Shown here piece by piece: positions 5,844 through 37,557 of a stretch of DNA of 47,205 bases. The position numbers and the translations under genes are program-made. The DNA comes from Paludibacteraceae bacterium (GTDB taxonomy: Bacteria > Bacteroidota > Bacteroidia > Bacteroidales > Paludibacteraceae): the NCBI GenBank assembly GCA_017444615.1, contig JAFSWF010000072.1, positions 1 to 47,205 on the forward strand, read 5' to 3'. The number at the start of each line of letters is the position of its first letter. The first letter of the stretch is position 1. Below the pieces are notes generated by a model. It saw only the letters and a program-made list of their open reading frames with translations, made no database searches and was not told where the DNA came from.

Positions 5844-5933
5844 TTACAGCGGCTCTGCCGCGGTCTTACAGTGTAACGGTCTTACAGCCCTTTGGGCGGT
5901 CTTACAGTGTAACGGTCTTACAACGCAGTGGTC
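5844..5933 (+). repeat. Hairpin-core repeat cluster C1 (5 units)
   Basis: Five head-to-tail units beginning TTACA and ending GGTC: 5844-5865, 5866-5881, 5882-5901, 5902-5917, 5918-5933. Arms around the 2-3 nt loop are GCGGC/GCCGC, GT/AC, GCCC/GGGC, GT/AC and AC/GT, complementary in every unit although the bases differ. The last unit encodes the final four residues (TTAL) and the stop of the M6 protease. Confidence 0.92.
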
Positions 5934-7534
5934 ATACGACCATTGAGGTCGTATACAACTCCGTTTCGGATGATGAGTACTTGACCGTTATGAAGCACTT
6001 TCATCGTCTTCTCGCCCACACGCTCCACTATCTCCTCGATGCCTTGCGGCGCTTCGTATTTGAGTTCAATCGTGTCTCCGCCGCCGCAAACATCAAACGT
6101 GATAATACCATCCTCTAAGGCGATGTTCGTTACAGGGAATTTCTTCACGGTAGTAAACGTAGTTGAACCGGCAGGATAGAGGTCGGTGGCCGCTCCTTCG
6201 TACGTGTTGGAATTTTTCTTGGCCTCTAATATATCCACACCCATACTGCTCGAATAGTTGTTGACTGTGTTTTGAACCCATCGACTGGCATTGTAATTGA
6301 TTTTTGTAATCATCAATCCTTCGCCCGGCAGATAAGCATCCCAACCTTCCTGCTTGCGATTTTCCAAAAGGTAGTATTTCTTCGGATTAGGATTCAACAC
6401 ATCCTCTACATTCACACCGGAATCGGTTAACAGAACCGCTGCACGGCAATCCTCTAATGGCGGCATAATCACAGACGCTTCGGAATTAACCAGCGTCGGC
6501 GTAATCCAGCCCATGAACCATTTCTCGTAAGCGGAATAGTTAGGAGGCGTATTACCGTCATTATTATAAGGTCCGTAGTCCATAATGTCCCAATCGACCA
6601 TCGTTCGATGGGTGGCATTGTCGGTAGTAGCGTACAAATCCGGCAAACCCATTACGTGGCTGAACTCGTGGCAGAAAGTACCAATACCGTCACGACGGCT
6701 ACCGCTTGTGCCGGTTAACTCATTCAAACAGCAGTAGTGGTCAATGGTCTTGCCGTCCAAATCGAAGGCCATGTCGGAATAACTCAACTCCCATTGATGC
6801 GGCCAGATAGTATTAGCAGCGGCACCACTGGCCTCTCCGTAACCGGCATACAAAATAACCACCCAGTCAACCTTACCGTCTCCGTCAAAATCATACTGGC
6901 TGAAATCAGCACCGCAGGAGTCGTGTGCTAAGATACAAGCCTCTTTAACCAACTCATCCGGATGTTGGTCGTCTCCATTCGAATCGTTCTTGCCATAATA
7001 CGATAATTTCTGGCTAACCTTCACCGGGCCATAGACATCTATCTGCAAGTCGTATGCACCCCAACTCTGGTCGTAAAAGTACTTATGGATAGAACCGGTT
7101 GCACCATTATAGGTGTAGTTATCTCCCATCGCCCAGTCGGTCATTTGTGCGTTCGTGCTTTTGAAGGCTTTGTCCTTGTAACTAACCAGAATAACGGCGC
7201 CACGCGGAGAGAGTAACGGCGTTAAACCCGTCTCTTGTTTAGCGCGGCGAACCTGTGCGCGTTGCCTTTGCATTTCCCGCGCAGCGGCCACACGTGCCTC
7301 TCCCGCTTCTTGACGAGCGGCTTTGATTTCTGCCGGTATAGGGGTAAGCGTTTCTTCGTCTAACCAATTACCTTCTGCGTCGGTGATGTAATGAAAATGC
7401 TCATCACCATTCAAATAAACGGTTTTCTCTGTTCCGTCTGCCGCGGTGCGAACAAATGCGCCTCGCTTGGCTGGAACCGCCATCACGGATGTACTCACTA
7501 CAACCAATATGGCACTTAATAGTGTTTTTTTCAT
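5918..7534 (-). CDS. Secreted M6-family metalloprotease
   Basis: 538 residues. A signal peptide ends near residue 19 (SVMAVPA), then a propeptide (to about residue 100), then the M6 catalytic domain. The zinc motif HEFSHVMGLPD (His289, Glu290, His293, Asp299) fits HExxHxxGxxD. Upstream YDFDGDGKVD is a calcium-loop-like motif common in this family. The C-terminus has the NGQVLIIRNGVVYDLNGR tail that resembles Por-type (type 9) secretion tails of Bacteroidales. The last four residues TTAL come from a unit of repeat cluster C1 and lie beyond the normal tail end. A propeptide-only paralogue lies directly upstream. The substrate is unknown. Confidence 0.88.
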   Translation of the reverse strand: MKKTLLSAILVVVSTSVMAVPAKRGAFVRTAADGTEKTVYLNGDEHFHYITDAEGNWLDEETLTPIPAEIKAARQEAGEARVAAAREMQRQRAQVRRAKQETGLTPLLSPRGAVILVSYKDKAFKSTNAQMTDWAMGDNYTYNGATGSIHKYFYDQSWGAYDLQIDVYGPVKVSQKLSYYGKNDSNGDDQHPDELVKEACILAHDSCGADFSQYDFDGDGKVDWVVILYAGYGEASGAAANTIWPHQWELSYSDMAFDLDGKTIDHYCCLNELTGTSGSRRDGIGTFCHEFSHVMGLPDLYATTDNATHRTMVDWDIMDYGPYNNDGNTPPNYSAYEKWFMGWITPTLVNSEASVIMPPLEDCRAAVLLTDSGVNVEDVLNPNPKKYYLLENRKQEGWDAYLPGEGLMITKINYNASRWVQNTVNNYSSSMGVDILEAKKNSNTYEGAATDLYPAGSTTFTTVKKFPVTNIALEDGIITFDVCGGGDTIELKYEAPQGIEEIVERVGEKTMKVLHNGQVLIIRNGVVYDLNGRMTTAL

Positions 7535-7586
7535 GAAAAATAAATTGTTTTTTAGGTTAATTTCCTTTGAAAAATTTTCTTATTTC

Positions 7587-7664
7587 CTACAGCCCTTCGG
7601 GCGGTCTTACAGCGTCAGCGGTCTTACAGCGGCTTGCCGCGGTCCTACAGCCCTTTGGGCGGTC
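7587..7664 (+). repeat. Hairpin-core repeat cluster C2 (4 units)
   Basis: Units at 7587-7606, 7607-7623, 7624-7644 and 7645-7664, arms GCCC/GGGC, GC/GC, GCGGC/GCCGC and GCCC/GGGC. It makes up most of the gap between the propeptide-only gene (stop at 7670) and the M6 protease start (7534). Confidence 0.92.
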
Positions 7665-7669
7665 TTGTT

Positions 7670-8014
7670 TTACACATGCTTCTTCACCCCATGTTTCTCT
7701 AACCAACGTTTCTGACACTTACTGCGGTCTTCCACGTTCTTAGCCTTGCGCCATGAGGCAACCACGCTGCCGTCTTTCTTTTGTTTGGCATACTTGAGCC
7801 AACCTTTTTGTGTCTCTACGATCTGCCAACCGTCTTCCGTCATCGTCCAGTGTTTGCGCTCATCGCCGCGCAGATAGGTCCGTAACACATATCCGTTTGG
7901 CTGCTCACGCTCAATCAATCCCGGATATGCCGGCACTTTCGCTGGCCCTCCTTGAGCATTAACTCCAATACAAAATGTAGCGATCATTGCTACAATACAT
8001 AAAATTCGTTTCAT
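7670..8014 (-). CDS. Secreted propeptide-only homologue of M6 proteases
   Basis: 114 residues from the ATG at 8014, chosen because it starts a clean signal peptide (MKRILCIVAMIATFCIGVNAQ); an in-frame ATG at 8035 is possible. The mature part (VPAYPGL, then YLRGDERKHWTMTEDGWQIVE) matches the N-terminal propeptide of the three M6 proteases in this window (VPAYRGW, then VGDEFYHYWENKEGK) but stops before any catalytic domain. It could be an inhibitor or folding aid for the protease just downstream, or the remnant of a broken protease gene. There is no HExxH motif. I see no second half in the following DNA, which is occupied by repeats. Confidence 0.72.
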   Translation of the reverse strand: MKRILCIVAMIATFCIGVNAQGGPAKVPAYPGLIEREQPNGYVLRTYLRGDERKHWTMTEDGWQIVETQKGWLKYAKQKKDGSVVASWRKAKNVEDRSKCQKRWLEKHGVKKHV

Positions 8015-8062
8015 AAAATGTTGTGTGTGTTTCAATAAACTATTTTTGTGTGTTTAATTTTC

Positions 8063-8148
8063 TTACAGCGGCTTTGCCGCGGTCTTACAGCGAAGCGGTC
8101 TTGCAGTGCAACGGTCCTACAGCGTAGCGGTCAGTCAGCTCGCTGACT
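8063..8148 (+). repeat. Hairpin-core repeat cluster C3 (4 units plus palindrome)
   Basis: Units at 8063-8084, 8085-8100, 8101-8116 and 8117-8132, arms GCGGC/GCCGC, GC/GC, GT/AC and GC/GC. Directly after them AGTCAGC, two bases, GCTGACT (8133-8148) forms a perfect 7-bp stem that codes the last residues of MlaF. Confidence 0.92.
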
Positions 8149-8895
8149 ACTCTTAATCTTCTTAAACAGCTCACTCGCAAACACGAAATCGTTCAGCGCC
8201 TCGTTTTCGCTATGCATAATCTCATGCCGGCTGCCTTGCCATTCTTTCTTGCCGTTTTTCAAAAAGAGGATATTATCGCCTATCTCCATGATGGAGTTCA
8301 TATCGTGGCTGTTAACAATCGTACAGATATTATATTCCCGCGTAATATCTTGTATCAACGCATCAATCACCAGACTGGTCTTCGGGTCCAAACCGGAGTT
8401 TGGCTCGTCGCAGAACAGATATTTCGGTTCCAGCACTATCGCGCGAGCAATCGCCACACGTTTCTGTTGACCACCGCTGATCTCGCTGGGCATCAAGTCC
8501 CACACCCGTTCCGGCATCTCCACTCTTCGCAAACAAAACTCTGCCCGGGCACGCATCTCTGCCTCACTCTTCTTACTGAACATCTCCATCGGAAACAGCA
8601 CATTCTCCATTACCGTCATCGAGTCGAAGAGTGCGCTGCCTTGAAACAGCATTCCCACCTCGCGGTGCAACGCACGAATATCCTTACTGCGCATCTCCGC
8701 CAAATCCCTACCGTCATACAGAATCTGTCCGCTGTCCACTTCGTGCAGACCGATGAGACTTTTCATCAGTACGGTCTTGCCCGAACCGGATTGTCCGATG
8801 ATCATGTTCACTTCCCCGTCCCGCATCTCTGTACTCACATGATCCAGCACCACATTCCCCTCAAAACTCTTCACTATGTCCTTAACTTCTATCAT
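8131..8895 (-). CDS. mlaF: MlaF-type ABC transporter ATP-binding protein
   Basis: 254 residues. Walker A is GQSGSGKTVL (about residues 34-43), the Q-loop LFQGSALFDSMTV is typical of the Mla/MCE ATPases, the signature is ISGGQQKRVAIARA, and Walker B runs through YLFCDEPNSGLDP. The switch His is in VNSHDMNS. It energises phospholipid movement between inner and outer membrane with the permease MlaE, encoded upstream after an intervening four-helix-bundle gene. The C-terminal SQRAD falls in a palindrome beside repeat cluster C3. No mlaD (MCE) gene follows, which is unusual for this locus. Confidence 0.88.
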   Translation of the reverse strand: MIEVKDIVKSFEGNVVLDHVSTEMRDGEVNMIIGQSGSGKTVLMKSLIGLHEVDSGQILYDGRDLAEMRSKDIRALHREVGMLFQGSALFDSMTVMENVLFPMEMFSKKSEAEMRARAEFCLRRVEMPERVWDLMPSEISGGQQKRVAIARAIVLEPKYLFCDEPNSGLDPKTSLVIDALIQDITREYNICTIVNSHDMNSIMEIGDNILFLKNGKKEWQGSRHEIMHSENEALNDFVFASELFKKIKSSQRAD

Positions 8896-8903
8896 AATAA
8901 CTA

Positions 8904-9395
8904 CTATGTAGTTGACCGCTTCGCTGTAGGACCACTGGCGTTGTAGGATCGCTTCGCTGTAGGACCATTCGCTTCGCTTATTGTAGGATTTTTTCTCTTC
9001 TTCTCTCCGCTCGTCGGAGATGTCTCCCCTTGACGCGGGGCGCTCCCTTCTAATCGTTGCTTGAAGGCCATAATTTGTTGCTGTAACGTAAACGTCTGAT
9101 ATTCTAACTGTTTACTTGTCTCTTCGTCAATAAAGCCGATTTGTCCACAAATCGTTAGTTGTGTATGTAATTCAAAAATCGAGCCAATTGCAATACTTAG
9201 AAAATTTGCAAAGTCTTTTTGACTATTTCTTCCTGCGCCCTCTGCTATATTGGACGGAATGGAAACGGCAACTCGAGTCATTTGAGAAACGATACCGTAT
9301 TTTTCATTAGCAGGGAAAGAACTCGTAACTTCGTAAATTCTACGAGCGAGCTTGATTTCTTCTTGCCAAATATGTAAATTTTTATAATTGTGCAT
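8904..9395 (-). CDS. Four-helix-bundle (23S IVS-type) protein with repeat-derived tail
   Basis: 163 residues. Residues 1-118 are the complete family core: NYKNLHIWQEEIKLA, then the hallmark SIPSNIAEGAGR (residues 45-56), and FANFLSIAIGSIFEL. Such proteins are about 115-125 residues, so 119-163 is extra. This tail contains GPTAKRS twice, which is repeat cluster C4 read in frame, plus SPTSGEKKRKN, coded by two short inverted repeats (about 9003-9040). The family is known from 23S rRNA intervening sequences and as stand-alone genes; its function is unsettled. Its position between mlaE and mlaF interrupts a normally contiguous operon and suggests insertion. Confidence 0.88.
   Translation of the reverse strand: MHNYKNLHIWQEEIKLARRIYEVTSSFPANEKYGIVSQMTRVAVSIPSNIAEGAGRNSQKDFANFLSIAIGSIFELHTQLTICGQIGFIDEETSKQLEYQTFTLQQQIMAFKQRLEGSAPRQGETSPTSGEKKRKNPTISEANGPTAKRSYNASGPTAKRSTT
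8914..8986 (-). repeat. Hairpin-core repeat cluster C4 (4 units), within a CDS
   Basis: Units in the opposite orientation (GACC...TGTAG): 8914-8929, 8930-8946, 8947-8962 and a longer 8963-8986. Read as TTACA...GGTC, the arms are GC/GC, AC/GT, GC/GC, and a two-step variant. They encode the C-terminal tail of the four-helix-bundle protein. Confidence 0.9.
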
Positions 9396-9405
9396 CTTTT
9401 TTTTC

Positions 9406-9476
9406 TTACAGCAACGTTAGTTGCGGTCTTACAGCGTAGCGGTCCTACAGTGTAACGGTCTTACAGCGTAGCGGTC
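9406..9476 (+). repeat. Hairpin-core repeat cluster C5 (4 units)
   Basis: Units at 9406-9428, 9429-9444, 9445-9460 and 9461-9476, arms GCAAC/GTTGC, GC/GC, GT/AC and GC/GC. It fills the gap between mlaE and the four-helix-bundle gene. Confidence 0.92.
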
Positions 9477-9502
9477 ACTGTCAAAGTAACAACTTTGACA
9501 GT
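9477..9502. other. Perfect 11-bp hairpin over the mlaE stop codon
   Basis: ACTGTCAAAGT, a four-base loop, then its exact complement. It spans the stop codon and last residues (SKLLL) of MlaE and touches repeat cluster C5. No T-run follows on the minus strand, so it is not an ordinary terminator; it could stabilise the mRNA 3' end. Confidence 0.75.
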
Positions 9503-10218
9503 ATCAGGTCGAGGAACAAGATCATGATATTCGAGTTCACCACCGCATTAGTACTCGCCCGACCAACATCCAGCGCACCACCACGCACGTTATACCCGTA
9601 ATAACTCGCCATGCTCGTAATCACAAACGCAAACACCAAACTCTTGATGATCCCATACCACACGTAATAGGGGTTGAACGCGTACTGCACACCGATCAGA
9701 TAATCATGCACAGTGATAATATCCGTGAACGCACCTACCGCCCATCCGCCAACGAGCCCCACCGACGTTGAGATGATCACTAACATCGGCATCATCGTTA
9801 CAAACGCCAGTATCTTCGGCAAAATGAGATAGTTAGCACTATTCACACCCATAATCTCCATCGCATCAATCTGTTCGGTGATTCGCATTGTGCCTATCTC
9901 CGATGCGATGTTCGAGCCTACTTTGCCGGCCAAAATAAGACATAAGATAGTACTTGAAAACTCCAATAACAGCGTCTCCCGCGTCAATAAACCTACCGTG
10001 TAAGTAGGCAACAGCGGGTTCTCCGTATTCGTTTTCGCCTGAATGGTCAAAATCGCCCCGATAAAAACGGAGATAATCAGCACAATAGGCAAGGACTGCA
10101 ACCCTTGCTTCTCTAACTCACGACTGTATTGCCGCCAGAACATCCGCTGCCGATCCGGTAAACGTAGCACCTTCCCCATCAGCAGCACGTATTCTCCTAT
10201 ATGTTGAAATAATTGCAT
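9481..10218 (-). CDS. mlaE: MlaE-type ABC transporter permease
   Basis: 245 residues with an N-terminal amphipathic helix (LFQHIGEYVLLMG) and about five membrane helices, the normal MlaE layout. Family features include SLPIVLIISVFIGAILTIQ, ELAP-like region KVGSNIASEIGTMRITEQIDAMEIMGVN, and the final VNSNIMILFLDLILS. It is the inner-membrane permease for phospholipid transport to or from the outer membrane and works with MlaF. It is the first gene of this unit, behind a promoter at 10341-10372 and a leader containing a hairpin at 10240-10263. Confidence 0.9.
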   Translation of the reverse strand: MQLFQHIGEYVLLMGKVLRLPDRQRMFWRQYSRELEKQGLQSLPIVLIISVFIGAILTIQAKTNTENPLLPTYTVGLLTRETLLLEFSSTILCLILAGKVGSNIASEIGTMRITEQIDAMEIMGVNSANYLILPKILAFVTMMPMLVIISTSVGLVGGWAVGAFTDIITVHDYLIGVQYAFNPYYVWYGIIKSLVFAFVITSMASYYGYNVRGGALDVGRASTNAVVNSNIMILFLDLILSKLLL

Positions 10219-10239
10219 TTTTACTCAATAATTTAGGGT

Positions 10240-10263
10240 CCCCGAAAATTTTAATTTTTGGGG
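10240..10263 (-). promoter_or_regulatory. Leader hairpin 22 nt upstream of mlaE
   Basis: CCCC, then an AT-rich stem, then GGGG; 10 of 11 positions pair around a two-base loop. It lies in the predicted mlaE 5' leader, close to the start codon, where it could affect ribosome access. It could also act as a weak terminator for upstream readthrough. Confidence 0.55.
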
Positions 10264-10340
10264 AGAGCGGAGGCAATGGTCGCACCTACCAATTAACGGA
10301 GTGGTTTGGTTTTCTGCGAGCCATTTGCCGAACGCGACCG

Positions 10341-10372
10341 CAAAGTTACAAAAAATATTTTGTATATGCAAG
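10341..10372 (-). promoter_or_regulatory. Bacteroidota-type promoter for the mla unit
   Basis: On the minus strand: CTTGCATAT at the -33 position, exactly 20 nt, then TAACTTTG (plus-strand 10341-10348), matching TAnnTTTG. The predicted leader to mlaE is about 115 nt. The 279-bp gap (10219-10497) otherwise holds only the leader hairpin and the divergent promoter. Confidence 0.75.
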
Positions 10373-10438
10373 CAAGAAACACATTTTAGGACGTTTTTTT
10401 ATAAAAAACGCATTTTACAAAGAAACAAAGAACATTCT

Positions 10439-10470
10439 TTTGCATATTTCATAAAAATATACTATCTTTG
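10439..10470 (+). promoter_or_regulatory. Bacteroidota-type promoter for the interrupted secreted-protein gene
   Basis: TTTG at 10439-10442 followed by CATAT, 20 nt, then TATCTTTG at 10463-10470. This is a full match to the TTTG/TAnnTTTG consensus, about 28 nt before the ATG at 10498, so the interrupted gene appears still to have an intact promoter. Confidence 0.82.
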
Positions 10471-10497
10471 CACTCAATTTGGACAAGTAGGACTAAA

Positions 10498-11034
10498 ATG
10501 ACATTATTGCGAAGAAATACAATCGTCTTTTTTGGGTGTCTTTGGACACTTTTGGGAGTGGTTTTTGCACCCCTCCATGCGGAGCAAATAACTCATGATT
10601 TTACAAGCTATGGAAAGGACGGTTCGTTGATCTAAACCCTAACATCCACTACCGCCCAAACAGATTTGGTTCATTATACCTGCCATGGCAATGCAACCTT
10701 CACATCTTCAGGCAGTTCTACCGTCCTCCGCATGACAAGTTCCAATGACAGCCTCACCACCGACCAACCCATCGCCAATTGGACTCAAATTCAGTTAGAA
10801 TATTCTTCTGCCGCCCCGCTAACCGGCTCAGATATAGGCATTTATATCCGCGAACCCAATACCCCATGGCAAGAGGTTTCAGCCGGTGTACAATACCGCG
10901 ACTTTTCCATCCTCGCCACACTACCCGAAAAAGGCACTTTTTACCTCCTCCTCCGCAACAAAAAAGACGCCCCTTTAGACCTTCGCCAAATAATCTATTT
11001 CATCACCCCCTGCGACTGCTACCAACCCGAATAA
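10498..11034 (+). pseudogene. Secreted protein interrupted by an in-frame TAA
   Basis: From ATG at 10498 one frame runs to 11034, broken only by TAA at 10633-10635 (codon 46). The first part encodes a signal peptide (LWTLLGVVFAPLHA) and AEQITHDFTSYGKDGSLI; the part after the stop (TLTSTTAQTDLVHYTCHGNATF and on) continues the same beta-rich style, including GSDIGIYIREPNTPW. A Ser codon (TCA) changed to TAA would explain it. Full reading would give 178 residues. It ends CDCYQPE without the secretion tail of its neighbours, so it may be a fragment of a larger gene. Readthrough or sequencing error cannot be excluded. Confidence 0.7.
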
Positions 11035-11063
11035 GCACCCCAAGTCGAGCTATCACCCGCCCA

Positions 11064-11079
11064 GAGTCGAGACCGACTC
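11064..11079. other. Short hairpin downstream of the interrupted gene
   Basis: GAGTCG, four bases, CGACTC, about 30 bp after the stop at 11034. No T-run follows. It may be part of a weak 3' end signal. Confidence 0.4.
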
Positions 11080-11088
11080 GAACCCATC

Positions 11089-11133
11089 CCATAGGATACC
11101 CATATGATAACCATAGGATACCCATAGGATAAC
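11089..11133. repeat. Tandem array, period 11 bp (CCATAGGATAC)
   Basis: Four units at 11089, 11100, 11111 and 11122, with one or two changes between them. It lies in the 530-bp gene-free stretch 11035-11564, which otherwise holds an AT-rich near-palindrome at about 11162-11192, a promoter and the TTTACAAAAT sites. Confidence 0.88.
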
Positions 11134-11359
11134 AGCCCTTTTTGTGCATTTTTGTCCTATTTACTATATATATACGTAGTATATATATACTTTCTGCGCC
11201 CTTTCTTCCCCTTTTCTATCTATACTGCATATAGAAATTGTTTTTTGTGTTCTAAAGGGTTTATTTAGGTTTTTGTACAATTTTTCCTAAATAATTATGT
11301 ACTTTTATTAATATTCGGCTACACCTTTTTATTATTCGCGCGTGTAAGACCCTAAAAAA

Positions 11360-11391
11360 TTTGCACAATTCAAAGATTAATATTAATTTTG
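11360..11391 (+). promoter_or_regulatory. Bacteroidota-type promoter for the accessory island operon
   Basis: TTTG at 11360-11363, exactly 20 nt, TAATTTTG at 11384-11391. It points to the ORF6N gene at 11565 with a leader of about 165 nt that contains the TTTACAAAAT sites. The following genes to 19599 have gaps of 37 and 33 bp or overlap, so this may drive the whole island. Confidence 0.72.
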
Positions 11392-20418: not shown

Positions 20419-20430
20419 TTACCATTTATT
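20393..20430. repeat. Tandem array, period 7-8 bp (CATTTAC)
   Basis: About five units at the flippase-truA junction. The stop of one gene (TAA) and the start of the next (ATG) both come from the repeated word, read on the minus strand as GTAAATG. The same word recurs at 32914-32947, 33118-33155 and, in the other orientation, 36292-36321. Confidence 0.85.
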
Positions 20431-21984
20431 GAGCCATTGGGCTATTTGTTGATTGATCTCTGGCGAAAGCTTCGCTTTGTAGGCGATGAGCGCGCCACCT
20501 CCTAAGAGGACGACTGAGCGCAAGATACTATCAATCCAGATATTGAGCGCAGGGAGGTATGTTTGCCAGAGGGCATTGAGGGCGAAGAGGCAAAGCAGCA
20601 ACGCGAGAATCGTCCACCAACTTCTATCTACGATACGAATGCGTGCCAGCGGTACAATCAAAGCAATAATCAGCACATAATAGATGCCGTAGGAAAGGAG
20701 GTTACTCAGCGCGGCGCCTTCCATTCCCATCCGCGGAATAAGGCTATTATTGAGGAATATAGCGCTGACGGTTAGAATGAGCGAAAGGAGCAGACTAAAC
20801 GCGTAATAGCGCGAGTAATTAAGGGCTGTGAGGCAAATAGCGAACGTAGCCATGATCAATTGGCTTATTCCCAGAATCAGAACCACTTGCTTCGCGGCGG
20901 CATAGATGTCGCCGTTGGGCAGAAGATAGAAGATAAGGTCTATGTTGCACCAAATAGCCAGTAAGATGAACCCTCCGATAAGCAGCAGATTGCGGGTCAC
21001 TTGGCGAATAAGGGTTGAGCATTCTTCGCGGTTTTGCTCCTTGATAGCACGTGCTAATTGAGGCGAAGCGATGGCTGTAACCGAGCGGTAAGGCACGCTC
21101 ACCAAAACCGCCATATACGTGGCGATGGCAAACACACCGGTTGAGTCCAAACCCATTTTAGCCGTTACAAAGAACGACGAGAGGGTTGGCGCCAGAACCG
21201 ACGTCAGCGCGGAGGCAATGAGGAAAGCGGTATAGAGAAAATAACGCTTAACAAGAGATGGGTTCTCCTTGAGGAACGTCCAATCGGGCTTGAGGCGAAT
21301 TGGTCGAAGCGAAAAAAAGTAACAGAGATTAATGAGCGATGCGATGGCGTAGTTGGCACAAAGACCGATAACAAAACCATCCAACGAAAGTACGCGGAAA
21401 GCGTACAACAAGTATAACACTAACAACCCCACGCGTACCACCAGTTCGCGTACCGCGCGAGGAACAACTATATGCATCAGCACATTGCAGGTACTCTCGC
21501 ATATCGCTTGATAGAGCATAAAGAACGCGAGCGGTAGCACGAAATAGTAGTACTCCACAAACAACGGCGATTTATCGCCAAACCATGCGCCTAATGGCAC
21601 CCGGCATGCCCAATAGACGGCCGCAAAGAGAATAAAGCCCACGAAGGGAACGACCATCGCCCAGAAGAAGAAACCGTGAGAGTCATCGGTAGATGACAGA
21701 CCGGCTGCGCCTGTAAGACCGCTTTCGCTGTAAGACCGCTTCGCTGTAGGACCGGCTGCGCCTGTAAGACTAAAATAGGGATAGAAACGGATGATGGAGG
21801 AGGAGGTTCCTAATTGTGCAAGGCCTACAAAGAGCGTAGCCGCGTCAATCAATACGCGCGCCAACCCGATTTCCTCTGCGGTGAGGAAACGGGTTAGCAC
21901 GAAGAACGTAGTGATCACACCTACGGCGATGCCGATATAGGTCACTATCGTACCACGAATCGATTGTTTAGCGATGACGCCCAC
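20419..21984 (-). CDS. Polysaccharide flippase (MATE/Wzx-like) with repeat insertion
   Basis: 521 residues with about 14 membrane helices and the start GVIAKQSIRGTIVTYIGI, typical of Bacteroidota Wzx or lipopolysaccharide biosynthesis flippases. The start codon is GTG at 21984, the only candidate fitting the family N-terminus. It likely moves lipid-linked sugars across the inner membrane. Residues 75-98, in the loop after the second helix (GAAGPTAKRSYSESGLTGAAG), are coded by repeat cluster C6, exactly 69 nt, so the frame is kept. It sits between the large FKBP and truA. Confidence 0.85.
   Translation of the reverse strand: MGVIAKQSIRGTIVTYIGIAVGVITTFFVLTRFLTAEEIGLARVLIDAATLFVGLAQLGTSSSIIRFYPYFSLTGAAGPTAKRSYSESGLTGAAGLSSTDDSHGFFFWAMVVPFVGFILFAAVYWACRVPLGAWFGDKSPLFVEYYYFVLPLAFFMLYQAICESTCNVLMHIVVPRAVRELVVRVGLLVLYLLYAFRVLSLDGFVIGLCANYAIASLINLCYFFSLRPIRLKPDWTFLKENPSLVKRYFLYTAFLIASALTSVLAPTLSSFFVTAKMGLDSTGVFAIATYMAVLVSVPYRSVTAIASPQLARAIKEQNREECSTLIRQVTRNLLLIGGFILLAIWCNIDLIFYLLPNGDIYAAAKQVVLILGISQLIMATFAICLTALNYSRYYAFSLLLSLILTVSAIFLNNSLIPRMGMEGAALSNLLSYGIYYVLIIALIVPLARIRIVDRSWWTILALLLCLFALNALWQTYLPALNIWIDSILRSVVLLGGGALIAYKAKLSPEINQQIAQWLNKW
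21699..21767 (-). repeat. Hairpin-core repeat cluster C6 (4 units), in-frame in flippase
   Basis: Units 21699-21716, 21717-21733, 21734-21749 and 21750-21767 (18+17+16+18 = 69 nt, 23 codons). Arms GGC/GCC, GC/GC, GC/GC and GGC/GCC. Individual units would shift the frame; the sum does not. Confidence 0.92.
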
Positions 21985-23929: not shown

Positions 23930-23962
23930 TTATGTTATGCTTATGTTATGCTTATGTTATGC
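23930..23962. repeat. Tandem array, exact period 11 bp (TTATGTTATGC)
   Basis: Three identical units at 23930, 23941 and 23952. The last codons (Lys-Ala) and TAA stop of ribE lie in the third unit. Confidence 0.92.
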
Positions 23963-27449: not shown

Positions 27450-27463
27450 AAGACGATGTTATT

Positions 27464-31973: not shown

Positions 31974-32650
31974 ACTAATTCTTCTGCCGCCAGAACGGCA
32001 CCTAATGCAAACCCTCTCCTTCCTTTGGCGATGTGCGTAATTATAATCGTATCTTCCTCACTATCCCATTTCACTTCATGGGTTCCGGGCACTTCGCCCT
32101 CGCGAATAGAAGAAATAGGAAGCCTACCCCCATCCCCTCCCTGAAGAGAAGGGAGGATTTTTTCTATTTGTTCGGCGAGCGTTTTTGCGGTGCCAGAGGG
32201 TTTGTCGAGTTTATGAATATGGTGTATCTCCACAATGGAAGGTGTGTATTGCGGTTGCATGGCCATCGCTGCGGCCAATTGCCTATTCAGCGCAAAGAAT
32301 ATATTCACCCCTACGGAGAAATTGCTTTTCCAAACGAGCATGGTTTTTTGAGTACTCTTCTTAACGATCACCTTTCCACTTTCGACTTCTCTTAACTCTA
32401 AACTCTCATCTCTCAACTCTTCAACATTCCACCCTGTCGTTCCGCACACAACGGGCACGCCTTGCGCCCACGCGCGTAAAATATTATCCTTGGCAGTAAC
32501 AGGTGTAGTGAACTCGATCGCTATCTCTGCGCCGTTCAACTCAAACGGAGTGCCGACATCAATGCGCGCCACTATTTCGTGTCCGCGACTAAGGGCTATT
32601 TCTTCTATCATATGCCCCATTTTTCCGTATCCAATGATTGCTATCTTCAT
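31970..32650 (-). CDS. dapB: 4-hydroxy-tetrahydrodipicolinate reductase
   Basis: 226 residues from ATG at 32650; the open frame reaches 32692 but that would include the promoter. GYGKMGHMIEE is the NAD(P)-binding loop, and EIHHIHKLDKPSGTAKTLAE contains the catalytic His pair and Lys. The enzyme acts in lysine and diaminopimelate synthesis. Residues about 76-92 (EELRDESLELREVES), between TGW and VKKSTQKTMLVWKSNFSVG, are coded by a 7-bp tandem array and enlarge a loop beside the active site. First gene of the dapB-lepB-WbqC-ilvE operon. Confidence 0.94.
   Translation of the reverse strand: MKIAIIGYGKMGHMIEEIALSRGHEIVARIDVGTPFELNGAEIAIEFTTPVTAKDNILRAWAQGVPVVCGTTGWNVEELRDESLELREVESGKVIVKKSTQKTMLVWKSNFSVGVNIFFALNRQLAAAMAMQPQYTPSIVEIHHIHKLDKPSGTAKTLAEQIEKILPSLQGGDGGRLPISSIREGEVPGTHEVKWDSEEDTIIITHIAKGRRGFALGAVLAAEELV
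32387..32425. repeat. Tandem array, period 7 bp (AACTCTN), within dapB
   Basis: Units at 32394, 32401, 32408 and 32415 with a partial at each side. It encodes a charged loop insertion in dapB. Confidence 0.85.
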
Positions 32651-32669
32651 ATACCCTACAAAAAGCGTG

Positions 32670-32701
32670 CAAAGATACAAAAAAAAATGCACATATGCAA
32701 A
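32670..32701 (-). promoter_or_regulatory. Bacteroidota-type promoter for dapB operon
   Basis: On the minus strand: TTTGCATAT at -33 (TTTG at 32701-32698), exactly 20 nt, TATCTTTG (plus 32670-32677). The ATG of dapB is about 20 bp downstream of the -7 element, giving a very short leader. Confidence 0.85.
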
Positions 32702-32744
32702 TTTAATTGTAAAAATCTATCAATATAGGGAAAAAAGAATCGGA

Positions 32745-32939
32745 TTAACCCTGTTGGTCAACCAGCATTTGGCAATTCTTACAATCGAACGTAAGACGCA
32801 GCGTAGTACCATTCTTGAGACGCAAGAAAGACGGTTCCTTACCCTTAGGGTAAGGATTGGTCTTGCGGCAATGCCCGAGTTCAAACAGCAGGCAGTACTT
32901 GCAAGTCATCAAACTATTTACCATTGAGCCATTTACCAT
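32745..32939 (-). CDS. Detached Cys-rich C-terminal domain of U32 peptidase
   Basis: 64 residues, ATG at 32939 directly after the TAA of the U32 gene. From residue 11 it reads MTCKYCLLFELGHC, then KEPSFLRLKNGTTLRLTFDCKNCQMLV. This is the pattern of the Cys-rich segment at the very end of long Bacteroidota U32 peptidases. The first ten residues (MVNGSMVNSL) are repeat-coded. So a normally fused domain appears split off, with the connecting segment lost. Five Cys remain, able to bind a metal. It could be an expressed separate subunit or a remnant. Confidence 0.65.
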   Translation of the reverse strand: MVNGSMVNSLMTCKYCLLFELGHCRKTNPYPKGKEPSFLRLKNGTTLRLTFDCKNCQMLVDQQG

Positions 32940-32947
32940 TTACTCAT
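32914..32947. repeat. Tandem array, period 7 bp (CATTTAC) at the U32 split
   Basis: Two exact CATTTAC units (32930, 32937) and two degenerate ones. It spans the U32 stop and the start of the detached domain. Confidence 0.8.
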
Positions 32948-34451
32948 GTATTGTTTCTCTGCGCCATTGATTTAGCACACTAATAGGTATAAAATAGGGT
33001 GCACTGTCAATGCTAATCTCCCTTGCTATATAGGGCGTATCACCCAGTTTGGACAGCTGGGTACGAATCGTTTGCAGCGCTTTGTCGGGGTTCTTCGCCG
33101 GTTCGTGAGGATAAATCCATTTACCATTTACACATTTACCATTTACCATTTGGTAGCTCAGTTTGAAGCCCTCCTCAGTCTCGCGAAAGACGATATCCAC
33201 CGGAATACGGCGTTCGGAGTGCAAGGACCGAATAAATTCAACATCCAGATTGCGGTATAACGGTACGCCGCTATAACGGTTTTCCGGCACTTTGTTGATC
33301 TTCACCAACGAACCGTCCACACCATTCACGTTGAATCCTTCGCTTCCGATGGTTATCCCGTCTCCGTTATGTAAGACCACACCTGTGTGAAGACGTACAC
33401 GCAATGTATTCCCTTGTGTTTCAATTACTTCGCCGATATGTTCTCCTGTGGATTTAGGAGTGTTCCAATTGGCCATATGGGGTGTGCGTCCATGCAGAAA
33501 ATAGTCTGTTGCGCCTCTATGAAACGTCTTTTCGGGGTTAGGCGTAAAACTACGGCTGATAACTGAATGCTGACTACTGATGGCTGAAAGCTTCTCCCGA
33601 TAGTACGCGGTGATATTGGTCACGTAGTCCGCGTCTTTGAGTCTTCCTTCTATCTTGAACGTCGTCACACCGGCATCGATAAGTTCAGCGAGGTAGGCAC
33701 TGCGATCTAAATCCTGTAGAGACAATACGTAGCGCTGATGAATAGGTTTTCCTTGATCGTCCAACACTTCGTTTCCTTCGGCGTCAAGCACATCGTACGC
33801 CATGCGGCAGAACTGTGCACACGCCCCTCTGTTGGCACTACGATTAGCCAGCACTTCAGAGATGTAACAACGCCCTGAATAACTGACGCATAGTGCGCCA
33901 TGCACAAAAGCTTCCAGTTCGATGTCCGGCACTGCTTCATGGATGGCTCGTATCTCGTCAATGCTTAGTTCGCGCGCCAAAACAACGCGTTTAAACCCTA
34001 AATCACGAAGGTGTGCCACTTGTTCGGGTGTGCAGTTATCGCATTGTGTAGAGGCGTGCAAACGAATAGGCGGAAGGTCTAAATCAAGCAAATGCAGATC
34101 TTGAATAATCAACGCATCTACACCTATTTTATATAGTTCGTGCGCGAGCGCGAGGGCTTGCGGGTACTCCTCTTCGTGCAACAAGGTATTGAGCGTCACC
34201 AGTACTTGCACACCATAGAGGTGCGCCATTTGTACCACTTCAGCCAAATCCTCAATACTATTGCCTGCCGCTTGGCGCGCACCAAACAGCGGTGCACCTA
34301 TGTACACCGCATCCGCCCCGGCTTGTATGGCGGCTTTCGCTACTTCTTTATCGCGAGCCGGAGAGAGGAGGCTAAGCGGTACATTACTATTCCCGCGGTC
34401 ACACTCACGTTCATGGAGTGCTTCGTTCCATATTGAGGAATCTCTATGCAT
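32940..34451 (-). CDS. U32-family peptidase (collagenase-like), probably truncated
   Basis: 503 residues from the ATG at 34451. LLSPARDKEVAKAAIQAGADAVYIGA is the usual N-terminus, and EAFVHGALCVSYSGRCYIS matches the U32 signature. ANRGACAQFCRMAY adds further conserved Cys. Members of this family act in RNA modification or as peptidases; which applies here is not clear. The frame stops at ISVLNQWRRETIHE, before the Cys-rich end found in long relatives, which appears as the next small ORF. Residues 288-299 (SAISSQHSVISR) and 433-445 (MVNGKCVNGK) are coded by 7-bp arrays. No ATG, GTG or TTG lies between 34451 and the conserved start, forcing a 112-bp overlap upstream. Confidence 0.88.
   Translation of the reverse strand: MHRDSSIWNEALHERECDRGNSNVPLSLLSPARDKEVAKAAIQAGADAVYIGAPLFGARQAAGNSIEDLAEVVQMAHLYGVQVLVTLNTLLHEEEYPQALALAHELYKIGVDALIIQDLHLLDLDLPPIRLHASTQCDNCTPEQVAHLRDLGFKRVVLARELSIDEIRAIHEAVPDIELEAFVHGALCVSYSGRCYISEVLANRSANRGACAQFCRMAYDVLDAEGNEVLDDQGKPIHQRYVLSLQDLDRSAYLAELIDAGVTTFKIEGRLKDADYVTNITAYYREKLSAISSQHSVISRSFTPNPEKTFHRGATDYFLHGRTPHMANWNTPKSTGEHIGEVIETQGNTLRVRLHTGVVLHNGDGITIGSEGFNVNGVDGSLVKINKVPENRYSGVPLYRNLDVEFIRSLHSERRIPVDIVFRETEEGFKLSYQMVNGKCVNGKWIYPHEPAKNPDKALQTIRTQLSKLGDTPYIAREISIDSAPYFIPISVLNQWRRETIHE
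33118..33155. repeat. Tandem array, period 7 bp (CATTTAC), within U32 gene
   Basis: CATTTAC at 33118, 33125, 33133 and 33140 with one extra base, then a degenerate unit. It encodes MVNGKCVNGK. Confidence 0.87.
33556..33590. repeat. Tandem array, exact period 7 bp (CTGANNN), within U32 gene
   Basis: Five units at 33556, 33563, 33570, 33577 and 33584. It encodes SAISSQHSVISR between two conserved segments. Confidence 0.87.
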
Positions 34452-34945
34452 CCGTTACAATGGTCTATTACTTCTTGTTGTACGCCGAAAACCTCATGCC
34501 CGAATACAACCGCAATGCGGTTGTGATCGGCTTCGCCTGTTAGATCGTTTTGCTGAAGGATCGCTTCGCTGTTAGACCGCTTCGCTGTTAGACTTTCTGC
34601 CACGGCTTCAAGGGTCACGGAGTCGTGGGCTTGTTCGACGGCATATACGGTGTAGCCTTGCGCTTTGAGCGCCTGAACGGCATCTAATGTGTTCTCAACA
34701 TAGCGCCAAGTGACACTCTCTTCGGCGCCGAGGGCTGTCTTATGAATCTCAGCATTGGGGGGGCAGCAACAGATTCCGCAAAGCACAACTTCTTCAATAC
34801 ACATCGCATCAGCTGTGCGGAATACTGCCCCCACATTGTGCTGACTGCGTACGTTATCCAGTACTACCACCAGTGGCAACTTATCCGCTTTGCGGAAAGC
34901 TTCCACGCTTAGGCGATCCATTTCAGCAGTCGTTAACTTCTTCAT
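34340..34945 (-). CDS. TrmH/SpoU-family RNA methyltransferase with repeat insertion
   Basis: 201 residues. LVVVLDNVRSQHNVGAVFRTADA is motif 1, IAVVFGHEVFGV motif 2, and IEIPQYGTKHSMNVSVTAGIVMY motif 3, so all three knot motifs are present. It 2'-O-methylates an RNA, which one is not determined. Residues about 118-139 (LTAKRSNSEAILQQNDLTGEA), just before motif 2, are coded by repeat cluster C7, exactly 66 nt, so the frame is preserved. The C-terminus overlaps the U32 gene by 112 bp. Confidence 0.9.
   Translation of the reverse strand: MKKLTTAEMDRLSVEAFRKADKLPLVVVLDNVRSQHNVGAVFRTADAMCIEEVVLCGICCCPPNAEIHKTALGAEESVTWRYVENTLDAVQALKAQGYTVYAVEQAHDSVTLEAVAESLTAKRSNSEAILQQNDLTGEADHNRIAVVFGHEVFGVQQEVIDHCNGCIEIPQYGTKHSMNVSVTAGIVMYRLASSLRLAIKK
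34525..34590 (-). repeat. Hairpin-core repeat cluster C7 (4 units), in-frame in methyltransferase
   Basis: Units 34525-34542, 34543-34558, 34559-34574 and 34575-34590 (18+16+16+16 = 66 nt, 22 codons). Arms are GGC/GCC, a mismatched GC/AC, GC/GC and GC/GC. Immediately beside it ACAACCGC, three bases, GCGGTTGT (34506-34524) is an 8-bp perfect hairpin. Confidence 0.9.
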
Positions 34946-35334
34946 AGGGCAAAAGGAAGATTGACGTGTAGCACACGCGCATCGGTGTCGATGTCCAGAA
35001 TAAAATCTTCATGAAGCGGCAACATACGACCGTCAGTGAGGGTGGCTAAGGTGTTAATGGTCGATTCATCGATGGTGTCTATCTCGCCGATGACGCTCGT
35101 CTCTGCGTCGCGGATAGTATAACCAACGAGATCTTGCCAAGTGAGCGTATCATCGTCGCCCTCATTAAGGTCTGTGCGAAGCACAAAGCCTTCGAGACCA
35201 ATCAGTTCAGAGATGTTCTCCGAACGGTAAGGCACAAAAAGCCCGTCGCGAAGCACAAAGACAAACGGGGGCAAGTCTTTGTAGTGCGTGCGGCGAATGA
35301 TACCGATGGATATGAGGTCTTGAGCACTTATCAT
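34942..35334 (-). CDS. rimM: RimM-like 16S rRNA processing factor
   Basis: About 130 residues from ATG at 35334, which overlaps the stop of the upstream lipoprotein (ATGA). IGIIRRTHYKDLPPFVFVLRD is the start of the RimM domain, with the PRC-barrel part around LVGYTIRDAE, IGEIDTIDES, and MLPLHEDFILDIDTDARVLHVNLPFAL closing it. RimM helps mature the 30S subunit head. It is shorter than typical RimM (about 170) because the first domain is compact, so the assignment is good but not certain. The stop overlaps the methyltransferase start. Confidence 0.82.
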   Translation of the reverse strand: MISAQDLISIGIIRRTHYKDLPPFVFVLRDGLFVPYRSENISELIGLEGFVLRTDLNEGDDDTLTWQDLVGYTIRDAETSVIGEIDTIDESTINTLATLTDGRMLPLHEDFILDIDTDARVLHVNLPFAL

Positions 35335-35837
35335 TGGCGTTGAGTGACAGTTATTGTGCCTCCTGAAAAGAGCACATTCAGTTTGAGCATCGATTCGCGG
35401 GATATTCCTTTTCGCGGCGAAGCGATACCCGCTGCCAAATCGTATTCCTCCCCGCAATTAGGACAGATAGCAAATATACCATCTATCTCGCATGGACACT
35501 TCTGACCCCTTCCTGCGCAGTAAGGACATGCCAGATCGAAGGCTTCATATCCGTTCGTAGTAACGTAAGTTACTACTCCTCCGTAACCACATGCTTCGCC
35601 GCTTAATAGGGGCTTAACGGCAGTCGTTTTACCTTTACGGAAATAGCCTTGGGGAGTAACGATAACGTAATCCGTAAAGGACGATTCCTTGAAATCTGTA
35701 AACTCCAAATACGTATTCATCACCACGCGGACAGGATAAATAGGAACCGAGCGTCTAAAACCCGAGTCCTCGCATGCCGAGAGGCATAAGAGCACGGCAA
35801 TCAGCCAAACACTATTTAATCTCCTGAAACGCCGCAT
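35331..35837 (-). CDS. Lipoprotein with Cys-rich ribbon resembling a Rieske loop
   Basis: 168 residues. The lipoprotein signal ends LCLSACEDSG. The C-terminal half has CPYC, then CPCEIDG, then CPNCGEEYDLAAG. The order and the closing CPNCGxxYDL resemble a Rieske-type 2Fe-2S domain, but the two His ligands are absent, so an iron-sulfur cluster of that type is not expected; a zinc or structural site is possible. I do not recognise a named family. It lies between a small FKBP lipoprotein and rimM and overlaps both. Confidence 0.7.
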   Translation of the reverse strand: MRRFRRLNSVWLIAVLLCLSACEDSGFRRSVPIYPVRVVMNTYLEFTDFKESSFTDYVIVTPQGYFRKGKTTAVKPLLSGEACGYGGVVTYVTTNGYEAFDLACPYCAGRGQKCPCEIDGIFAICPNCGEEYDLAAGIASPRKGISRESMLKLNVLFSGGTITVTQRQ

Positions 35838-36337
35838 ATATGAATCGTATAAATGAGGGTGGAGTAGGGCGGTATATACGCCGTCGTACCTTCTGTTCCG
35901 TTTCCTTCCGCATTGTACGCATCGTTGGACGAAAACTTATCGTAGTCGTACCCCAAATAGCAAGGAATATACAACTCAATGTCACCGTTGTTATGAATTA
36001 AGTGACAACCTTCGGAAAAACCCGGAATACAACTACTCAATAGCAAACCGATGTTGTTTCCCTGATCTACTTGGTAGCCGTTAATCAGTTTGACGGTATA
36101 ATTGCACACAACTGTACTGGTTGAGTTCGGCCGTGCGTCTTGTGGGGTGGGGTCTGCAATAATCTTATACTGCAAGCCGGAAGAAGTCTCTTTGACGCCT
36201 TCTTGCTTCAGGTTATTGGTCAGCCAGATCTCGTTTTGCACTCTCCAGTCGGCCCAGTTATTCTGTTTGCAACCTCCTAAAACCAATAAGCAAATGGTAA
36301 ATGAATAAATGGTAAATGATTTTATTTTGCTATCCAT
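35816..36337 (-). CDS. FKBP-like lipoprotein, diverged
   Basis: 173 residues. A lipoprotein signal ends LLVLGGCKQN. ETSSGLQYKIIADPTP and the closing YIPPYSTLIYTIHI are FKBP-like, but the centre (VKLINGYQVDQGNN, GFSEGCHLI) lacks several usual active-site positions, so isomerase activity is doubtful. Third FKBP-type gene in the window. Residues 6-16 of the signal peptide (KSFTIYSFTIC) are coded by the TAAATGG-type array at 36292-36321. The start overlaps the stop of the EnvC-like gene by 16 bp. Confidence 0.82.
   Translation of the reverse strand: MDSKIKSFTIYSFTICLLVLGGCKQNNWADWRVQNEIWLTNNLKQEGVKETSSGLQYKIIADPTPQDARPNSTSTVVCNYTVKLINGYQVDQGNNIGLLLSSCIPGFSEGCHLIHNNGDIELYIPCYLGYDYDKFSSNDAYNAEGNGTEGTTAYIPPYSTLIYTIHICGVSGD
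36292..36321. repeat. Tandem array, period 7 bp (AAATGGT), within a signal peptide
   Basis: Four units (7+8+7+7 bp). Reverse complement of the CATTTAC-type word. It encodes part of the FKBP-like lipoprotein signal peptide. Confidence 0.82.
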
Positions 36338-37557
36338 AATTCGGGGTTTAAAATGTCTCTATCTTTGTATATTTGGAAATACAATTCTGTTTTCTGGTCT
36401 TGTTCGGCGTCGGTATAAATAGTACCGATGGCTTGTTTGGTATTCACTTTGTCGCCTTGTTTGACGTTTAGTTTGGCGAGGTTGGAATAGACCGTTCGGT
36501 AATTACCGTGTTGAATGATGACGGCATAAGTACCACCTACCATAAAGCAACTTGTCACTTCGCCTTGGTACACCGCGCGCGCTTTCGCACCGGAGGTTGT
36601 CTGGAGGTAAATACCTTTGTTGTCAATGGTCACGTGTTGGTAAAGCGGATGTTGCTGTTTACCGAAATGTCCGCTGATGAGACCTTTCTCAATCGGCCAT
36701 GGCAAACGTCCTTTGTTCGCCTCAAAACCTCCTGCAACCAGTTGTTGCTCTTTGGTCAGAGTGGTTTTGGAGGACGCCTGCTTGCGAACGATATCATCAA
36801 TCTTCTTATTCAACTCGTTCACTTTCTTCTGTTTCTGCTGAATCTGCTTATTCAAGTTTTTCTCTTTGGATTTAAGTTGATTCAACATGTTCTGCTGCTT
36901 GCGCTCATCGCGTTTGAGGTTGTCCTGTTCGCGTTTGCGGGAGGAGAGTACGTTCTGTTTATCTTTCTTGTTCTCTTTGAGCAGGTTATTCTGCACCTCT
37001 ATCTCCGCTTGCGTGTTCTCTATGCGTTGCACTTGTTGTTGACGATAGTGCGCGAACTCCTGTAAATAGCGCGCGCGGCGAGCTAATTGCTGAAAACTCT
37101 CACTGCTCAGCAGGAATAGTAGCGGTGATTGCTGCATGCGGGCATAATGGGTTTGCCGAACCATCTCTGCGTAATCGGCTTTGTAGATGTTCTGCACTTG
37201 TTGCAACGAGTCACGTGTACGGTTCAAACGCTTCATCTCTCCGTTGAGAGCCACTATCTCTCGGTCCAACGTACGGATGAGTTGCTTTTGGTTCTTGATG
37301 TTCTGCCCGATGAGTTGCAGTTTATTGAGCGTCGCACTCTCATCTTTCTTGGTCTGCTTTAGCATCTTATTGGTCTGCTCAATCTCTTGCTGCAGTTTCT
37401 TCTGCTCTTTCTGCAGATCCTTAACGCTATCAGCAGAGAAGACCGCTATCGCTGTTAGAATACAGACCGCTACGCTGACGGACCGTTTCACTGACAGACC
37501 GATTTTGTTAATCCATCTGTACTCTGTATTCTGTATTCTGTATTCTCTCAAAGCCAT
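36322..37557 (-). CDS. EnvC-like murein hydrolase activator (M23-type)
   Basis: 411 residues. Residues 1-42 give the signal peptide region; 43-285 are a long coiled coil (LQKEQKKLQQEIEQTNKMLKQ and KSKEKNLNKQIQQKQKKVNELNK); 295-411 are a LytM/M23 domain (RLPWPIEKGLISGHFGKQQHP to YFQIYKDRDILNPELWI). The usual HxxxD zinc ligands are replaced around YQHVTIDNKGIYL, so it is probably an activator of a cell-division amidase rather than an enzyme. The N-terminus REYRIQNTEYRW is coded by a 7-bp array, and the signal peptide core (SVSVAVCILTAIAV) by repeat cluster C8. Confidence 0.87.
   Translation of the reverse strand: MALREYRIQNTEYRWINKIGLSVKRSVSVAVCILTAIAVFSADSVKDLQKEQKKLQQEIEQTNKMLKQTKKDESATLNKLQLIGQNIKNQKQLIRTLDREIVALNGEMKRLNRTRDSLQQVQNIYKADYAEMVRQTHYARMQQSPLLFLLSSESFQQLARRARYLQEFAHYRQQQVQRIENTQAEIEVQNNLLKENKKDKQNVLSSRKREQDNLKRDERKQQNMLNQLKSKEKNLNKQIQQKQKKVNELNKKIDDIVRKQASSKTTLTKEQQLVAGGFEANKGRLPWPIEKGLISGHFGKQQHPLYQHVTIDNKGIYLQTTSGAKARAVYQGEVTSCFMVGGTYAVIIQHGNYRTVYSNLAKLNVKQGDKVNTKQAIGTIYTDAEQDQKTELYFQIYKDRDILNPELWIAK
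37441..37500 (-). repeat. Hairpin-core repeat cluster C8 (3 units) forming a signal peptide core
   Basis: Units at 37441-37457, 37465-37480 and 37481-37496, arms GC/GC, GC/GC and GT/AC. Read in frame they give the hydrophobic stretch of the EnvC-like protein's signal peptide. Confidence 0.85.
37517..37549. repeat. Tandem array, exact period 7 bp (CTGTATT)
   Basis: Four units at 37517, 37524, 37531 and 37538 plus a partial. It encodes residues 3-13 of the EnvC-like protein and reaches the DUF4292 stop codon. Confidence 0.9.

Follow-up and report, generated by a model that had tools for sequence, protein, structure and literature searches.

The window analysed here is the whole of contig JAFSWF010000072.1 (forward strand, 47,205 nucleotides), one of the 72 contigs of the Paludibacteraceae bacterium metagenome-assembled genome (MAG) GCA_017444615.1, which is 1.6 Mb in size and 76% complete (G000 below). 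It carries a family of hairpin repeats of only 16-24 nt, arranged head to tail, of which 32 units were counted by hand in eight clusters (C1-C8). The repeat family is real and conserves its structure, and it is probably mobile. We put a probability of roughly 45% on the reading, drawn from sequence comparison, that the units are non-autonomous mobile DNA elements resembling repetitive extragenic palindromic (REP) sequences, copied by fold-back of single-stranded DNA and with a weaker link to proteins of the Y1 transposase type.

An earlier, sequence-only reading of the window had described units with TTACA at one end and GGTC at the other, joined by a small hairpin whose arms change together. 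Its 32 units and eight clusters lie where it had placed them, and its single broken 2-bp arm, at 34543-34558, was found as described, with 31 of the 32 units pairing; the unit at 8963-8986 is irregular, yet its outer two bases pair. The terminal words stand as the common form, although the 5' word can also be CTACA, TAACA, TTGCA, CTTCA, CGTCA or TGTCA and the 3' word is sometimes GATC. The shuffled-arm null, which that reading had named beforehand as its refuting check, was run on units chosen by their flanking words alone, with no requirement for pairing, and the 3' dinucleotides were shuffled among units 2000 times. In the own-genome set of 77 units, which comprises 29 loci around tandem matches plus the window rather than every base of the genome, the arms pair in 74, well above the shuffled mean of 28.2 and maximum of 40. 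When the GC/GC type is removed, 34 of 37 units pair (shuffled mean 13.2, maximum 21). Among records titled as Bacteroidales, with loci placed by title alone, 285 of 311 units pair against a shuffled maximum of 149, and 24 distinct arm pairs of at least 3 bp occur. The arms thus covary when measured against shuffles, and the proposal that a folded strand is under selection, or is the route of copying, is supported.

Pairing falls away in other organisms. Only 17 of 165 units pair in records other than Bacteroidales (16 of 65 in other genome records and 1 of 100 in viral ones), and 13 of those 16 come from three loci in other Bacteroidota (L107, L110 and L137). A first split between Bacteroidales and control records, made by title after the pairing list was known, had given 284/305 and 4/150 and had left seven Bacteroidota loci in neither set (L069, L078, L097, L107, L110, L137 and L153). 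Forty viral contig stretches match the words, but their middles pair in 1 of 50 units, or 1 of 100 with the wider pattern, and they are regarded as chance matches rather than carriers. Chance or low complexity as the source of the family itself is ruled out by these mostly unpaired matches and by reversed control patterns: in the own genome TTACAN6-14GGTCTTACA has 29 matches against 0 for its control, and TTACAN5-17GGTC has 139 against 51.

The family is centred on one genus. The tandem junction was found in 21 of 61 genomes, the own genome included; all genomes with many copies are from this one genus; among the listed matches, those in other families number one or two per genome and have unpaired middles. 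A linker-free core, AGCGNAGCGGTC, occurs in 78 of the 81 genomes of the genus, again including the own genome with 55 exact copies, at 0-202 copies each, and the reversed core occurs 0-3 times per strand in the same genomes. Across a sample of the phylum a core match is present in 180 of 296 genomes, mostly close to the reversed control. The clearest excess outside the genus (control in brackets) is in G302 with 56 (1), G330 with 23 (0) and G118 with 11 (1), followed by G319 with 10 (0), G207 with 9 (0) and G216 with 7 (0). Five cores about 172 bp apart were observed in a genome of another family (G302:C1:1220176-1220874). The three other Bacteroidota loci named above seem to carry the unit family; among the matches listed, GGTCTTACA hairpin arrays are present in a Flavobacteriales MAG (L110), a Flavobacterium (L137) and a Saprospiraceae MAG (L107). 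The linkers between hairpins vary by species, reading by eye as TGACA, TCAAA-GTAGAAA or TAAAA-GATAAAA on the GACC strand.

The loops point to the molecule that folds. They were counted on the TTACA strand in own-genome and Bacteroidales units with stems of 2-3 bp. Three-nucleotide loops are GNA in 182 of 237 cases, begin with a purine in all 237 and are never TNC, and 4-nt loops are GNNA in 52 of 59 cases, with GNRA in only 16 and TNNC in none. The available text of PMC4686876 describes DNA mini-hairpins as exceptionally stable when a GNA or GNNA loop sits on two or more G-C pairs, the GCGAAGC mini-hairpin melting at up to 78 °C. Since the loops of the TTACA strand are of this published type, single-stranded DNA of that strand is the likely folded molecule, a deduction made from the loops and not from energies. 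When four units were folded with DNA parameters, the TTACA strand was better than its complement in three, with small values for the short stems.

The arrays also begin at a preferred dinucleotide. TC precedes the first unit in 72 of 92 cases, compared with 6.8% of 9120 other [TC][TA]ACA words at the same loci, in a test that set aside the viral loci, 37 from other organisms, and any first unit with GGTC, GATC or AGTC directly before it. Clusters C1-C7 all start after TC, which would be the join site. Moreover, related species differ at the same gene sites. In a SpoU/TrmH-type methylase gene, compared in the 30 best of 79 genomes with a match and with arrays called by eye (22 present, 8 absent), one codon position holds no array, one unit, four units or differing arrays of 7-nt repeats (heptamers). 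A single 18-nt unit lies there in frame in G026 and G004, and four units (66 nt) in G000 and G103. Short-repeat cassettes of both kinds, hairpin and heptamer, thus alternate between congeners at this site (L214-L243). At the 3' end of an MlaF-like gene congeners likewise have, by eye, hairpin arrays, heptamers or neither. These differences are gain or loss of arrays between species.

A further regularity was found at the GGTC edge of the arrays, where 126 distinct ends from 196 arrays of at least two units were searched for a perfect inverted repeat directly after the last GGTC. Arms of at least 6 bp were present at 22 of the 126 GGTC ends, against 1 of 124 on the TTACA side and 1.35% of random sites; for arms of at least 8 bp the corresponding values are 13, 0 and 0.3%. 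At 46 of the ends the array possibly runs on with a degenerate unit; among the other 80, 21 have palindrome arms of 6 bp or longer. At the TrmH site the palindrome is present in 11 of 22 array-bearing genes and in none of the 8 array-less ones, with a rate of 0.9% in 1590 windows elsewhere in these genes. When the array-side halves were swapped between species, a mean of 3.8 palindromes remained and none of 2000 swaps reached 11, in statistics that ignore the kinship of the 30 related species. The array-side half is also the more variable (amino-acid difference 0.71 vs 0.36). Judging from the loss of palindromes on swapping and the variability of the array-side half, each species seems to carry, as the outer arm, an inverted copy of its own gene flank. 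In G000 this arm prolongs native codons of the mlaE-like gene, and in G018 it does so imperfectly. Such palindromes would be signs of fold-back synthesis. Copying at the edge is preferred over a pre-existing hairpin as insertion target because none of the eight array-less TrmH genes has the palindrome; counter to edge copying, partial palindromes also stand at some mlaE-like ends that have no hairpin units (G068).

From these features a mechanism can be proposed in which the units would move or be copied through folded single-stranded DNA and join at TC, with fold-back synthesis contributing to some extent at the edge of the gene. The GGTC at the end of every unit contains a fresh TC, and this would explain why arrays lengthen head to tail. 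More weakly, a transposase of the Y1 (HUH) type, related to the REP-associated tyrosine transposases (RAYTs) and with a long C-terminal part, might act in trans, a suggestion of a correlative kind. The candidate family consists of proteins of about 330-430 residues with a long conserved C-terminal part and an MPDH[IVL]H motif (L254-L272), and has matches in 52 of the 81 genomes of the genus, up to nine in each, fragments included. In three scanned proteins the best NCBIfam match is REP_Tyr_transpos (E 8e-11 to 1e-6), and the profile of the family finds transposases as its best PDB matches (E about 0.005). Over 81 genomes the numbers of cores and of Y1 matches are correlated (rho 0.41), as they are by independent contrasts on 30 genomes (0.43, a value reached by 28 of 2000 permutations), and a Y1 match is present in 29 of 33 unit-rich genomes compared with 8 of 20 unit-poor ones. 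Reverse transcriptase was rejected as a driver because it shows no association with the units: by hand count, 8 of the 33 unit-rich genomes and 3 of the 20 unit-poor ones have it.

Several observations weigh against REP-like mobile units. Transposition was not observed, and mobility is read from sequence comparison. The GT/AC and AC/GT units, 22 of the 74 paired own units, have a single G-C pair and lie outside the published stable mini-hairpins; a standard DNA energy model gives only -0.6 kcal/mol for the commonest unit and favours the complement for the GT/AC unit, and units with GTTA loops or long arms fold as well or better as RNA in energy models. The hairpin foot is TTACA, CTACA, TAACA or a variant, with no GT[AG]G tag. 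The boundary palindrome is missing from the other 11 of the 22 array-bearing TrmH genes. As for the enzyme, the Y1 scores are below the NCBIfam curated cut-off (best 42 vs 80 bits), and no Y1 match was found in 4 of the 33 unit-rich genomes, among them the own genome and G004, which is 96% complete and has 74 cores. Nor are the Y1 genes flanked by units, the density being 0.06 per flank at 18 of 20 loci (L259 and L273 dropped) against a shuffled background of 0.08; a classical RAYT-REP pair was rejected on this ground. Core number tracks the number of S23 genes at least as well (rho 0.52, 81 genomes; by contrasts 0.44, 30 genomes, reached by 21 of 2000 permutations).

The alternative that survives best, although doubtful, dispenses with a dedicated enzyme. 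A host polymerase would halt at a hairpin, turn back onto the end of the gene and copy it in inverted form; slippage or template switching through short repeats would then leave heptamer or hairpin arrays, before the strand rejoins where two bases match (GA on the copied strand). The TC join is indeed a 2-nt match with the start of the next unit on the other strand, edge palindromes at the TrmH site adjoin hairpin and heptamer arrays alike, heptamer spacers are found inside hairpin arrays, and partial inverted copies occur at mlaE-like edges. However, one conserved unit at many loci of a genome, with species-specific linkers, needs a shared template or a mover, and the prevailing GNA and GNNA loops would be unexpected from slippage.

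The S23 genes, for the 23S rRNA intervening-sequence (IVS) protein, bear on two further possibilities. The S23 gene of the window (8904-9395, minus strand; PF05635, E 2e-35; TIGR02436) lies between the inverted arrays C4 and C5 and between two protein genes, which we take to be mlaE- and mlaF-like, rather than in a helix of 23S rRNA. The open reading frame (ORF) as listed begins at an internal codon of its frame, and reading continues into C4. In a comparison of the 30 best of 73 genomes, with ends read in 29, the mlaE- and mlaF-like genes overlap directly (ATGA) in 17 (hand count). G018 has an S23 gene with unit arrays on both sides after its mlaE-like gene, the contig stopping past the second array. 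The S23 proteins of G000 and G018 are identical at 99 of 119 residues (the next best compared is at 55%), and their upstream arrays match up by TGTAG/TGTAA words, with three of four corresponding units differing on both arms and still paired and the first irregular in G018 (by eye). G000 and G018 are not sister species in the mlaE tree, where those lying between them are without the S23 element; this distribution must involve loss, transfer or repeated insertion.

The flanks of S23 genes were then compared over the 30 best-scoring loci of the genus and the 29 best-scoring new loci from other families of the class. At the genus loci the two flanks share 9.17 complementary 6-mers, compared with 3.06 for mismatched flanks (0 of 10000 permutations), and 19 of 30 loci share six or more; in the other families the values are 10.76 vs 3.29 (0 of 10000), with six or more at 23 of 29. 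For 137 other ORFs the values are 2.53 for own and 2.67 for mismatched flanks. The own S23 locus taken alone, with 100-nt flanks and the frame read through C4, has no shared 6-mers. Of the 30 genus S23 genes, 14 have hairpin units detected before them and 10 after them, compared with 9 and 13 of 89 other ORFs; the GGTC of the units at S23 genes is antisense before the gene (33:0) and sense after it (18:3), showing that the arrays are inverted. Many families of the class have S23 genes between inverted arrays of short locus-specific repeats (L354-L382), and up to 23 S23 matches occur in one genome (G451). The best explanation treats the S23 genes that have inverted arrays on both sides as a second type of element, which in the genus partly uses the same repeats. 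The earlier picture of one repeat family needs extending, as the units also form inverted arrays at some S23 genes and alternate with heptamers at one coding site.

The fold of the S23 protein resembles Avd of diversity-generating retroelements. A more general proposal, speculative and on balance unlikely, is that Bacteroidia have an undescribed DNA process, tied to S23 (Avd-like) genes, in which a DNA end is folded back on itself where genes meet, the flank is copied in inverted form and tandem units, either hairpin units or locus-specific heptamers, are then added; if true, one such process would have produced the hairpin units, the heptamer arrays and the S23 elements with their inverted arrays alike. 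Less probable still is that the units are ends or relics of S23 (IVS-like) elements, spread by the S23 protein. The locus-specific inverted repeats around S23 genes in genus and class, the inverted orientation of the hairpin units there and the correlation between core and S23 numbers would all suit such an origin. Yet six of the eight window clusters have no adjoining S23 gene, G003 and G036 have units but yield no S23 match, only 14 of the 30 genus S23 genes have detected hairpin units before them and only 10 after them, S23 flanks in other families carry other repeats (by eye), and we know of no catalytic motif in the protein.

A function at the RNA level, with intercistronic hairpins selected for mRNA stability, termination or translation coupling, is quite improbable. 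Arrays do lie at gene ends; near other ORFs GGTC is antisense 32:6, with stop codons on the sense strand, in counts where one array may appear twice; corresponding units at the mlaE-like site differ between two species and still pair (by eye); and longer units fold well in RNA energy models. Against this, the loops follow rules that suit DNA, on the strand complementary to the usual mRNA, with GNNA loops that are mostly not GNRA, the in-frame clusters C6-C8 have the reverse orientation, and an Rfam scan of the window gave no match at gathering thresholds. An assembly artefact or ordinary tandem duplication, as might be suspected in a MAG of 72 contigs, is scarcely credible given that the same unit family occurs in many separately assembled MAGs, that the arms covary and that the reversed control gave 0.

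Five of the eight window clusters are at or between gene ends and three are inside genes. C1 (5844-5933, plus strand) has five units after TC, the last of which provides the stop codon of an M6 peptidase gene (5918-7534, minus strand), and is followed after its final GGTC by the palindrome ATACGACC-attga-GGTCGTAT (5934-5954). C2 (7587-7664, plus) and C3 (8063-8132, plus) each have four units after TC; C3 is at the 3' end of an ABC ATPase gene, presumably MlaF-like, and has by eye the boundary palindrome AGTCAGC-tc-GCTGACT. The four-unit arrays about the S23 gene are C4 (8914-8986, minus), downstream of it and with the palindrome AACTAC-ata-GTAGTT ahead of the mlaF-like ATG, and C5 (9406-9476, plus), upstream of it and inverted relative to C4, with the palindrome ACTGTCAAAGT-aaca-ACTTTGACAGT taking in the mlaE-like 3' end.

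Two genes had been said to carry whole clusters in frame, and both do. C6 (21699-21767, minus) has four units within a MatE-like gene (20419-21984; 22.9 bits, slightly below the Pfam cut-off of 24.9) and the palindrome GTCATC-tacc-GATGAC one base past its last GGTC. C7 (34525-34590, minus) has four units in 66 bp within the SpoU/TrmH-type methylase gene (34340-34945), with the palindrome ACAACCGC-att-GCGGTTGT in the codons that follow. A third in-gene case can be added, C8 (37441-37496, minus), where three units and one TGTATTC heptamer (37458-37464) make up N-terminal codons of a peptidase M23 gene (36322-37557) that we assume to be EnvC-like. That heptamer copy is the same as the neighbouring TGTATTC heptamer, and the N-terminal signal-like segment of the protein is mostly encoded by hairpin units and heptamers. 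Tandem heptamer arrays of about 4-6 copies, differing in sequence by place, lie within genes or fill gaps between genes at 33117-33151, 37516-37546, 40166-40201 and 44023-44063, and 11-bp tandem arrays of 3-4 copies lie at 11088-11133, 23930-23962 and 47075-47118.

If the units are as proposed, they would be very small mobile repeats whose 2-bp stems make sense only if the folded molecule is DNA, and would document, in nature, how single-stranded DNA folds within living genomes. The units lengthen conserved proteins by extra codons, fold-back copying can be tested directly through the edge palindromes, and the flanks point to a class-wide association of S23 genes with inverted short-repeat arrays. 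No published description of that association was found in the literature searched, and none of the unit family, in a search whose coverage takes in few subscription journals and only part of the text of its sources.

Rickettsia palindromic elements are about 100-150 bp long. The sequence-only reading had offered them as the closest concept, and this was not borne out; they are likewise palindromic and in frame within protein genes, but they are not arrays of small units, and the REP/RAYT system is closer. The short tandemly repeated repetitive (STRR) sequences of cyanobacteria are heptamer direct repeats. A heptamer direct repeat, TAACTGA, is described in the available part of PMC4679880 as a short intergenic tandem that is also found in five Bacteroidetes; that system is one fixed heptamer, whereas the heptamers here are not the same from one locus or species to the next, and one site has them in alternation with hairpin units. 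The BrickBuilt element of Porphyromonas gingivalis, also of the Bacteroidales, has tandem 23-nt direct repeats between genes (PMC4596501, available text), but it is an IS5-type miniature inverted-repeat transposable element with terminal inverted repeats, and its printed 23-nt consensus shows no such arms. The ends of IS200/IS605 elements have subterminal hairpins on the same strand, whereas the arrays around S23 genes here are inverted. The S23 IVS of 23S rRNA, as far as PMC4990558 describes it in its available text, is similar in having an S23 ORF between inverted repeats; here the gene is between protein genes and the inverted repeats are heptamer or hairpin-unit arrays.

REP sequences share with the units the short palindromic form, the many clustered copies, mostly outside genes, and the preserved pairing (PMC2817692, PMC8266576 and PMC3116915, as far as their available text goes), together with the logic of a single-strand hairpin and the presence in the genus of RAYT-related Y1/HUH proteins. 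They differ in that the units here are 16-24 nt with stems down to 2 bp, lie head to tail instead of in inverted pairs and have in-frame copies inside genes. RAYTs are described as cutting at CT beside the repeat (PMC8266576, available text), which is similar to the TC join here, although the register is not the same. TnpA-REP subclasses with a large C-terminal domain are described as not associated with REPs in the available text of PMC6006769, which also gives subclass 2.6 of Bacteroidetes as flanked by atypical, weaker secondary structures without GT[AG]G and with copies elsewhere. Compared by description only, these structures may be the nearest published relative of the units; the subclass 2.6 proteins, as that text presents them, have a median of 179 residues and an NH[LIV]H motif, whereas the longer Y1 proteins of the genus have MPDH[IVL]H and no adjoining units. 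By behaviour, the units are of the REP kind, while they are not members by the strict definition.

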